A DNA stretch of 50,429 nucleotides from contig CANGLK010000007.1 of the NCBI GenBank assembly GCA_947454735.1, positions 1 to 50,429 of the forward strand, given 5' to 3'. The notes under the pieces were generated by a model. That model worked only from the letters and a program-made list of their open reading frames with translations. It was not told where the DNA came from and did not search any database. This document shows positions 4,348 to 28,371 of this stretch, piece after piece. Both the position numbers and the translations under genes were made by a program. Source of the DNA: Candidatus Nanopelagicaceae bacterium (GTDB lineage Bacteria; Actinomycetota; Actinomycetes; Nanopelagicales; Nanopelagicaceae). Within the stretch, counting starts at the first letter, position 1; each line of letters opens with the position of its first letter.

Positions 4348-5127
4348 ATGGCTGAGTTCAAGGTCTCTTACGAGCCGCCCAAGGGAAAACCTCTGGGCAC
4401 AAACCTCACCTTCAAAATTTGTACAACTTTAATCATTCCCATTTTCCGTCTCATTATGAAGCGCGATATTCGTGGAATCGAAAATCTCCCACGACAGGGG
4501 CGCGCAATCGTCGCCTCTAATCATCTCTCTTATGCAGATGTCCTGGTGCTTACAGACATGCTCTATACAAATGGCCGGGCACCTCGCTACCTTGGAAAGT
4601 CTGGAGTCTTTAAAGTTCCTGTCATTGGAAAAATTCTCCTTGCTGCAGGTCAGATTCCAGTAGAGCGTGAATCAAGTGATGCGCGTAAAGCTGTTGATCA
4701 TGCGAAGATTTTGTTAGAGCAAGGCCACTTACTAGGTGTTTATCCTGAAGGAACGCTTACTCGCGATGAAGATCTGTGGCCGATGATTGCAAAGACTGGT
4801 TGTGCCCGACTTGCTCTTGCAACCGATACGCCTGTCATTCCCATCGCTCAGTGGGGTTCGCAGAAGATTCTTCCACGGTATACAAACCGCATCTATCTCT
4901 TTCCGCGCAAGACAATTGAAATGCGAATCGGTACTCCTGTAGATCTCTCTCGCTGGAAGGGCAAGCACGAAGACTCTCAAGCGCTCATTGAAGCAACAGC
5001 AGAGATTATGCGCGCAATTACCGCGATGCTCGAAGAAATTCGTGGAGAGAAGCGCACCCCAGTAATCTTCGACCCACATAATTCAAATCTGCCTCGTACA
5101 GGCAATTTTAAGAAGAAGGCGAAGTAA
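4348..5127 (+). CDS. plsC: 1-acyl-sn-glycerol-3-phosphate acyltransferase
   Basis: PlsC transfers a second acyl chain to lysophosphatidate to make phosphatidate, at the inner membrane face. The 259-residue protein has the catalytic NHX4D box (N58-H59 to D64, NHLSYAD) and the PEGT substrate box (133-136). A single N-terminal hydrophobic stretch (LIIPIFRLIM) may anchor it. The stop codon overlaps the gpsA start by one base (TAATG), so the two phospholipid-precursor genes are translationally coupled. It may be the only acyltransferase of this type here, but the window cannot show that. Confidence 0.92.
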   Translation: MAEFKVSYEPPKGKPLGTNLTFKICTTLIIPIFRLIMKRDIRGIENLPRQGRAIVASNHLSYADVLVLTDMLYTNGRAPRYLGKSGVFKVPVIGKILLAAGQIPVERESSDARKAVDHAKILLEQGHLLGVYPEGTLTRDEDLWPMIAKTGCARLALATDTPVIPIAQWGSQKILPRYTNRIYLFPRKTIEMRIGTPVDLSRWKGKHEDSQALIEATAEIMRAITAMLEEIRGEKRTPVIFDPHNSNLPRTGNFKKKAK

Positions 5128-24429: not shown

Positions 24430-26069
<1,640 letters not shown>

Positions 26070-26097
26070 TTCTTGCTAGATTTCACTGCAGTAACAA

Positions 26098-26109
26098 TAG
26101 AATCAATTC
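26098..26109 (+). promoter_or_regulatory. Leaderless promoter of glnD (-10 TAGAAT)
   Basis: TAGAAT (26098-26103) then 6 nt and ATG 26110. The TAG of the box is also an in-frame stop, so ATG 26110 is the only plausible start. Confidence 0.6.
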
Positions 26110-28371
26110 ATGGCTACACGAGAGAGGAGGTCGCGTTCTAACGAACGCGACCTCCTTATCTCATCTCTCTTCAAATCCAGTGGCGCTGACTCGAATGAGG
26201 TAGCAATCGCCGCAGTTGGCAGTTTCGGACGTGGTGAGCTCGCTCCCGGTTCAGATTTAGATATTGTCATTCTCCACTCAGGCTCTTATAAGCCAGCCCA
26301 GTTAACAGAGATAGTCAATGCAATTCTCTATCCACTGTGGGATCAGAAACTTAAAATTGATCACTCTGTTCGAACGCGACTAGAAGTCCGAGCCGCCCTC
26401 AGTGAAGATCTCAAAGTAGCAATGGGCCTTCTCGATATTCGCCTTATCTGTGGAAGTGCAGATCTTGTTGCAGAGATTCAAAGCATGGCTCTTGAGAGTT
26501 GGCGCGATGAGAGCAGTCGCTATCTGCCTTTATTGAAGGCAACTTTGGAAGAGCGCTATGAGCGTAATGGCGAGCTTGCTTATCTCCTCGAACCCGATCT
26601 CAAGGAATCGCGTGGCGGGCTAAGAGATATCACCGCACTTCGTGCGATGAACTCATCTGGCGCAGTCACTCTTCCAATGGAGCGGGTAAGCCAGGCGGAA
26701 TCACTCCTATCTACCGTGCGAGAGACTCTTCACATCACAAGTGGCCGAGATAAAGATCGATTGCTCTTTGGTGAGCAAGATAAAGTAGCTGAGCTCCTCA
26801 AGTACAGTGATGCGGATGCGCTCATGAGCGATGTCGCTCAATCCGCTCGCGCAGTCGATTACTTGATGCAGATGGCGTGGCATCAATATCACCATAAAGG
26901 TAAAGATGGATTTGGACGTTTCTTGCGAAAGGTGCGTTCAACAACAATCGCGCCGGGGATAAGTGTGAGCAATAAGGAAGTAGTCATCGACTCAACATTT
27001 GATATCGATAGTGATCCGGTGATTGGCTTACGTGCTGCAGCAACAGCCGCTCAACTTGGTTTACGTTTAGCTTTCGAACCGCTTCGTATTTATGCAGATG
27101 CTCTCGATGCAGGCAGGGGAGCGTTACCCAATCCATGGCCACGGGAAGCGCGTGAATATCTCATAGCTCTCATCGGTGCAGGGCCAGCAATGGTTGAAAT
27201 CTTTGAAGCTCTCGATCAAGAGGAGATTCTCTTCCATTGGATACCTGAGTGGAGGGGCGTGCGTTCACTTCCTCAGCGCAATGTTCTCCATCGCCACACC
27301 GTCGATCGCCACATGGTTGAGACTGCGGTCTCTGCGGCAGCGCTTACTCGTGAAGTACACCGCCCGGATCTCTTGCTCTTCACCTCACTCTTTCATGACA
27401 TTGGAAAGGGCACACAGGAAGATCATTCGCTTCGTGGTGAAGTACTCATTAAGCCACTTGCCGAGCGAATTGGATTCAATTCCCCCGATGTGGAAGTTAT
27501 CCAGAAGTTGATAAAGCATCACCTCTTGCTCTCGGCAACTGCTACGAGACGAGACCTTGATGACCCAGCAACGATTGCAAGCGTTGCAGAGCACATTACC
27601 GATGTTGGAACCCTCGAACTCTTACATGCCTTGAGCATTGCAGATGGCGAAGCGACAGGGCGCGCGGCATGGAGTGAATGGAAGGCAGCTCTTGTCAGTG
27701 AGCTTGTACGTAAAACGAAATTAGCCATTACCGATAACACCATCTCTCGACAGCCAGAACTTTCGTCAGATCAGTTAGAGCGTGCCTCCCGCCAGATTCT
27801 CGATGTAGTTATCGAAGATCGAGGAAATGTCTATGCAATTGAAGTCATATCGCCCGATAAGACTGGACTCCTTTCGATTGTCTCTGGAGTTCTCAACATC
27901 TTGCGCCTTGATGTTCGAAGCGCGCGCACGAAGACCGTTGATGGCGTTGCTGTGATGGAATGGATTGTCGTTCCAGATCCCAATGCTGCAGTAATTACTC
28001 GAGAGGATCTTCATCGCGAGTTAGTCCGCGGGCTAGATGCTGAAGGCAAGCTGGCGGATCGAATTCAAGCGCGCATCGAGGCGTATGCGCAGATGCCTAC
28101 GATTCCAGTACCACCTCCGGTCGTTGAAACTTTTCTTGATGCAGCAACCGATGCAACGATTATCGAGGTCAGAAGTCATGATCGCCCGGCACTTCTCTTC
28201 TCGATTGGCGACACTGTTCGAAAGTGCAATATTGATATCAAATCTGCAATTGTGACAACACTCGGCGCAGAAGCGATTGATACTCTCTATGTCACCGAGA
28301 TAGGCGGGGGAGCGCTCACAGCAGAGCGCGCGACCGAGGTCGCTTCGCGAATCCAAGCTTCTCTCAAGTAG
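26110..28371 (+). CDS. glnD: [Protein-PII] nucleotidyltransferase GlnD
   Basis: GlnD modifies and demodifies PII according to glutamine. The 753-residue protein has the nucleotidyltransferase motif GSFGRGELAPGSDLDIV (about 37-53), an HD phosphohydrolase domain (H429-D430 in FHDIGKG) and two C-terminal ACT domains (about 575-650 and 680-753) that sense glutamine. Only 36 residues precede the catalytic motif, shorter than many homologues. The codons for residues 6-16 form a perfect hairpin (26125-26156). It likely adenylylates Y51 of the adjacent PII, as in other actinobacteria. Confidence 0.93.
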   Translation: MATRERRSRSNERDLLISSLFKSSGADSNEVAIAAVGSFGRGELAPGSDLDIVILHSGSYKPAQLTEIVNAILYPLWDQKLKIDHSVRTRLEVRAALSEDLKVAMGLLDIRLICGSADLVAEIQSMALESWRDESSRYLPLLKATLEERYERNGELAYLLEPDLKESRGGLRDITALRAMNSSGAVTLPMERVSQAESLLSTVRETLHITSGRDKDRLLFGEQDKVAELLKYSDADALMSDVAQSARAVDYLMQMAWHQYHHKGKDGFGRFLRKVRSTTIAPGISVSNKEVVIDSTFDIDSDPVIGLRAAATAAQLGLRLAFEPLRIYADALDAGRGALPNPWPREAREYLIALIGAGPAMVEIFEALDQEEILFHWIPEWRGVRSLPQRNVLHRHTVDRHMVETAVSAAALTREVHRPDLLLFTSLFHDIGKGTQEDHSLRGEVLIKPLAERIGFNSPDVEVIQKLIKHHLLLSATATRRDLDDPATIASVAEHITDVGTLELLHALSIADGEATGRAAWSEWKAALVSELVRKTKLAITDNTISRQPELSSDQLERASRQILDVVIEDRGNVYAIEVISPDKTGLLSIVSGVLNILRLDVRSARTKTVDGVAVMEWIVVPDPNAAVITREDLHRELVRGLDAEGKLADRIQARIEAYAQMPTIPVPPPVVETFLDAATDATIIEVRSHDRPALLFSIGDTVRKCNIDIKSAIVTTLGAEAIDTLYVTEIGGGALTAERATEVASRIQASLK
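26125..26156 (+). other. Perfect 14-bp hairpin in the 5' coding end of glnD
   Basis: AGGAGGTCGCGTTC, loop TAAC, then GAACGCGACCTCCT. The stem is perfect and GC-rich, begins at coding base 16, and is followed by a pyrimidine-rich stretch. It could be an attenuator of glnD, the terminator of amt-glnB, or both. Confidence 0.7.

Follow-up and report, generated by a model that had tools for sequence, protein, structure and literature searches.

What does a strong RNA hairpin do inside the first codons of a protein-coding gene? The question is raised by glnD in the window, the whole stretch of 50,429 nucleotides that was analysed, which makes up contig C7 in the 1.4 Mb assembly of a Candidatus Planktophila-type (acI) actinobacterium of the Nanopelagicaceae. 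The gene order in the window is ftsY–amt–glnB–glnD–ffh. On the plus strand, amt encodes an ammonium transporter (24430–25734; Pfam PF00909, NCBIfam TIGR00836), glnB the P-II protein (25731–26069; Pfam PF00543) and glnD the P-II uridylyltransferase (26110–28371; NCBIfam NF002895 and TIGR01693); the names ftsY and ffh, unlike these three, were given from sequence alone. The glnB stop and the glnD start are separated by 40 nt in the window and by 9–10 nt in many relatives. The ATG at 26110, which the sequence-only reading had chosen, is the correct glnD start: nearly all relatives align at M[A/G/S]TRERRxRS, and the near-universal peptide M[G/S/A]TRERRxRSNE fixes the start. No Shine-Dalgarno sequence was seen for glnD.

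The perfect 14-bp hairpin that the same reading had placed at 26125–26156 was borne out, its first pair lying at nt 16 of glnD. Its 5′ arm AGGAGGTCGCGTTC (26125–26138) and 3′ arm GAACGCGACCTCCT (26143–26156) enclose a TAAC loop (26139–26142), all on the plus strand, and in the minimum-energy fold this core belongs to a full hairpin of 19 pairs with one bulge, covering nt 11–53 of the gene (26120–26162). The weaker stem-loop AATCTAG-TTCTTG-CTAGATT over the glnB stop codon (26063–26082, plus strand) is also present as described earlier, and similar stems were found in L010, L039 and L032–L035.

The glnD-start hairpin is confirmed as real and far beyond chance. The fold of 26040–26190 had a z of −4.6 against dinucleotide shuffles, none of 200 being as good. 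Under a synonymous null, in which the peptide was held fixed and codons were redrawn from the usage of the relatives, the first 66 nt of glnD reached −33.8 kcal/mol compared with −13.6 ± 3.8 in the recodings (z = −5.4; 0/400 as good). A random genome of this size would be expected to contain about 0.03 perfect 14-bp hairpins with a 3–8 nt loop. The glnD start fold is the strongest among the 48 genes predicted in the window, and it ranks first of 1371 genes in the complete relative G082. In that relative, perfect hairpins of at least 14 bp occur at 12 places, 11 of them intergenic, so the coding position is the odd aspect of the glnD hairpin. The second strongest start fold in the window belongs to the gene at 4348–5127 (z −3.6).

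Some simple readings of the element were rejected. The AGGAGG in the left arm, earlier considered a Shine-Dalgarno sequence that the hairpin would hide, proved to be two Arg codons; these are replaced in relatives, and no start codon stands suitably spaced behind them. An inserted palindrome or repeat family was discarded, since the peptide aligns without gaps, meaning that nothing was inserted, and no second copy of the arm sequence occurs in the 1.4 Mb assembly at 0 or 1 mismatch. A terminator on the minus strand was dropped for lack of an A-tract before the stem. The curated covariance models of Rfam gave no credible match at 25500–26700. No antiterminator structure that could compete with the hairpin, as in a classical attenuator, showed up in the folds computed.

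We compared about 100 distinct glnD starts from the genus and the family; in the window's genus, glnD was present in 68 of the 101 genomes searched. The first 20 codons often form a hairpin of 15–20 bp, both within the genus and in the family's other genera, with the register sometimes different. The window's register (centre at +31.5, loop of 4 nt) is common to L010, L012 and L039 and is broken in L011. In a large clade the stem reaches up to 20 bp and uses a different register (centre at +34.5, usually with an 8-nt loop), and in both main registers the base of the stem lies at nt 11. Other genera of the family carry further versions (L098, L108–L111). Most hairpin-bearing relatives gave z values of −3 to −8 against the synonymous null. 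In the large-clade register, nine of the 20 pairs showed changes on both sides, and double-change cells numbered 46 compared with 14.7 after shuffling and 2–12 with slid partners. Because this covariation exceeds both controls, selection most likely acts on the RNA pairing in addition to the protein.

The sequence-only reading had taken a peptide conserved without the pairing as a sign against the element. Such a state exists in part of the genus, where only weak folds were found though TRERRxRSNE is kept, so the hairpin is not universal; elsewhere the pairing is kept by compensatory changes or has been re-formed in a different register. When mapped on a combined GlnB and GlnD tree, the strong-hairpin state is clustered and needs about 10–11 changes, gains not being separable from losses. 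The gene itself is absent from about a quarter of the near-complete genomes of the genus and family (for example G013, G014, G157, G071 and G041), in which glnB is kept.

In many relatives the stem runs directly into CUUUUU(U), encoded by the Leu-Phe codons Leu20-Phe21, and the stem with this tract would together make an intrinsic terminator within the glnD coding sequence. Where the hairpin is strong, T is over-represented in these two codons (z +2.7); in starts with a weak hairpin it is under-represented (z −5.0). Both z values treat related sequences as independent, although they are not. The three codons that follow are neutral in T content. In the window, the perfect 14-bp core provides the stable GC-containing hairpin of an intrinsic terminator, and behind it lies a moderately U-rich tail, TTATCTCATCTCTCT (26156–26170, plus strand), at the place of the CTTTTT of many relatives. 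The window's site was not called by a strict terminator scan, since U makes up only half of the tail TTATCTCA (4 of 8); the same scan does call the site of L028. We also used a combined hairpin/U-tract score of the d'Aubenton-Carafa type, which was read only against controls scored alike: it was above 0 in 43 of 47 strong starts, in 0 of 26 weak starts and in 3 of 250 internal coding windows, and reached +29.6 in the window.

Upstream of the start, a candidate leaderless promoter was found. The −10 hexamer TAGAAT (26098–26103, plus strand) lies 6 nt before the ATG, and its position is conserved in the family: among 99 distinct upstream regions, 80 have a TANNNT that ends 6–7 nt before the glnD start, compared with an average of about 0.8 at other positions. 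In the clade with the 9-nt gap, the box is TAAGAT and overlaps the glnB stop codon. A TANNNT box precedes 243 of 1371 genes in G082, a frequency in line with published leaderless actinobacterial genes, which have TANNNT about 12 bp before the start codon (PMC3160421). This suggests that glnD is also transcribed as a leaderless mRNA, and the earlier mention of a leaderless message thus gains support from the exact spacing of the box.

The place behind glnB was also followed into genomes of other arrangement. An intergenic hairpin stands after glnB in the glnD-less L128 and L130, and a canonical terminator in the glnD-less L134; L129, L135 and L136 have no equally clear structure there. L224 belongs to another family and has a wider gap; between its glnB and glnD stands a long canonical terminator containing seven U. 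Since some genomes lacking glnD, and one with a wide gap, have hairpins or terminators at this place, a transcription end after glnB appears to be a recurring feature, which would be set inside glnD in many family genomes with a gap of 9–10 nt. Short space is not the whole cause, because the window has a 40-nt gap yet still uses the coding hairpin.

Other gene starts in the lineage share this build. A genome-wide synonymous scan of G082, whose gene starts came from a simple predictor so that some listed genes may have wrong starts, gave 15 to 19 genes in two runs with a start z of −4 or below, compared with 1 of 1221 internal windows. Strong start folds are enriched within 40 nt behind a same-strand gene (14/685 versus 3/549; Fisher p 0.02), and the upstream neighbours include rplQ, rplT, frr, glyA, sucD and glnB. 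Upstream genes of these kinds are generally strongly expressed. Behind rplQ, a conserved terminator-like hairpin occupies the first 12 codons of truA (L233–L262 in the genus; L259 and L294 in the window's genome G000, contig C41). Behind rplT, a SpoU-type rRNA methyltransferase gene carries a long conserved hairpin in its first 16 codons, where compensatory changes also occur (L263–L292; L293 on contig C30 of the window's genome). All retrieved truA and methyltransferase loci with a complete start carry the first-codon hairpin, with z of about −3 to −10 and compensatory changes. The truA arms of the window's genome, CCCGCTCTC/GAGGGCGGG, stand in place of the CCCACTCTC/GAGAGTGGG of most others, a paired double change by which two residues of the protein differ and the pairs are kept. 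No alternative ATG, GTG or TTG was found between start and hairpin in glnD, truA or the methyltransferase gene of G082. Further strong start hairpins in G082 (1467963−, 1296681−, 742169+, 490931+, 614632+ and 317444+) stand behind glyA, frr, and clpP-, carD-, sucD- and dnaN-like genes. One rplT-linked methyltransferase gene, L284 (G067:C1:628653-629432), has a single in-frame TAA, from a recent pseudogene or a sequencing error.

We consider there to be about an even chance that the hairpin is a 3′ boundary element, terminator or attenuator, of the amt–glnB transcript, displaced into the first 20 codons of glnD and lowering glnD relative to amt–glnB. Polymerase would run from amt–glnB into glnD, the hairpin would form in the emerging RNA, and together with the U-rich tail it would end part of the transcripts, so that less uridylyltransferase would be made relative to transporter and P-II protein. 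Transcripts from the gene's own leaderless promoter just before the ATG could escape, because a ribosome on the 5′ AUG, as we propose, would sit on the 5′ arm at its base (from nt 11), preventing the stem from closing beside the tail. Read-through RNA from amt–glnB, having no Shine-Dalgarno for glnD, would be stopped. That the element may end or attenuate amt–glnB transcription had been suggested by the sequence-only reading; the covarying hairpin, the U-tract of many relatives and the hairpins or terminators at the same place elsewhere argue for it, while the window's own U-tract is weak. From these features we infer termination and its efficiency, the sufficiency of the window's weaker tail and the ribosome-escape step. 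Against a boundary element speak the half-U tail of the window and the weak pairing in part of the genus; moreover, a terminator past the gene's own start would hit glnD's own transcripts unless these were spared.

Two other functions were weighed against the same evidence. As the main alternative, the hairpin may be an exonuclease barrier, the long RNA being cut or Rho-terminated further inside glnD and 3′–5′ exonucleases halting at the stem to leave a stable amt–glnB message, without termination at the hairpin itself. The galE hairpin of Escherichia coli, at a cistron junction of 9 nt, works in this way (PMC11925234), and the strong stem and weak U-tract of the window's clade fit such a role; it is the window's weak tail that keeps this reading alive. 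The selection on the U-tract, the CTTTTT that many relatives have immediately after the stem, and the terminator score speak against it, and we regard it as possible but rather unlikely. The hairpin could instead serve glnD's own leaderless mRNA, as a shield from 5′-end decay or by tuning ribosome loading at the 5′ AUG, with no action on amt–glnB. The −10 box conserved 6–7 nt before the start and the stem base at nt 11 in both main registers agree with this, and strong hairpins are commoner with the box (43/83 versus 4/20), but this difference is confounded by kinship. Raw counts also link the hairpin to a short gap, and for either link the tree offers too few independent pairs for a test. Only 4 of the 19 G082 genes with z of −4 or below have the box, these genes cluster behind a close upstream gene, and the U-tract would be left unexplained; a role confined to the gene's own mRNA is thus improbable. 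That an Arg-rich peptide and its codons form the hairpin by mere coincidence, or that a palindrome was inserted, could be argued from TRERRxRSNE being conserved even where pairing is weak, yet the synonymous null, the covariation and the re-registration with other peptides in other genera make this reading extremely improbable.

The boundary-element reading can be set beside known systems. A partial intercistronic terminator of the intrinsic type shares the stable hairpin, the CUUUUU(U) directly behind it in many relatives and the position at a gene boundary in a same-strand cluster; the differences are that the glnD hairpin lies wholly within the first 20 codons of the downstream gene, past its start, and that the window's U-tract is weak. 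Dar and Sorek (2018, PMC5927463) described protective 3′ structures in E. coli operons, most of which fall within the coding region of the downstream gene and are likewise conserved hairpins there, but they average 107 nt into the gene without a U-tract, whereas the glnD hairpin occupies nt 11–58 with a U-tract in many relatives; absence of a U-tract is roughly true of the window and untrue of many relatives. At E. coli galE–galT, a hairpin at the junction sets the galE 3′ end (PMC11925234). The 9 nt from stop to start there resemble the 9–10 nt of many relatives (40 in the window), and the effect of the next gene's translation start on termination can be counted as a second likeness; in contrast, that end is made by Rho termination, RNase E and exonuclease trimming, and galT has a Shine-Dalgarno sequence, glnD none that was seen. 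With leaderless actinobacterial genes (PMC3160421), glnD shares the TANNNT in the form of TAGAAT at 26098–26103, but that class does not include a strong hairpin immediately after the start.

Hairpins that lie in downstream coding sequence have precedents. Three aspects look new: the location at nt 11–58 behind a probable leaderless start; a stem that has shifted register yet covaries, with a U-tract in many relatives; and the repeated occurrence behind genes for ribosomal proteins within a single streamlined lineage. No description of this turned up in the incomplete body of literature covered, and searches on glnD in Planktophila and on rplQ–truA terminators gave nothing. We might speculate, though we think it unlikely, that streamlined actinobacteria have a class of start-codon-embedded terminators, in which the terminator of a strongly expressed unit lies in the first 10–20 codons of the next gene, stopping read-through RNA and sparing transcripts with a ribosome already on the start codon, including the gene's own leaderless ones; glnD, truA and the rRNA methyltransferase gene would be members.

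The hosts are abundant, little studied freshwater actinobacteria with tiny cells and compact genomes. Together with the other such genes, glnD, truA and the rplT-linked methyltransferase gene form a test set for whether ribosome loading decides between termination and read-through at a start codon. If true, the boundary element would have moved into protein-coding sequence, visible as paired synonymous and even amino-acid changes, and would show how neighbouring genes can still be set to different levels where hardly any intergenic space exists.
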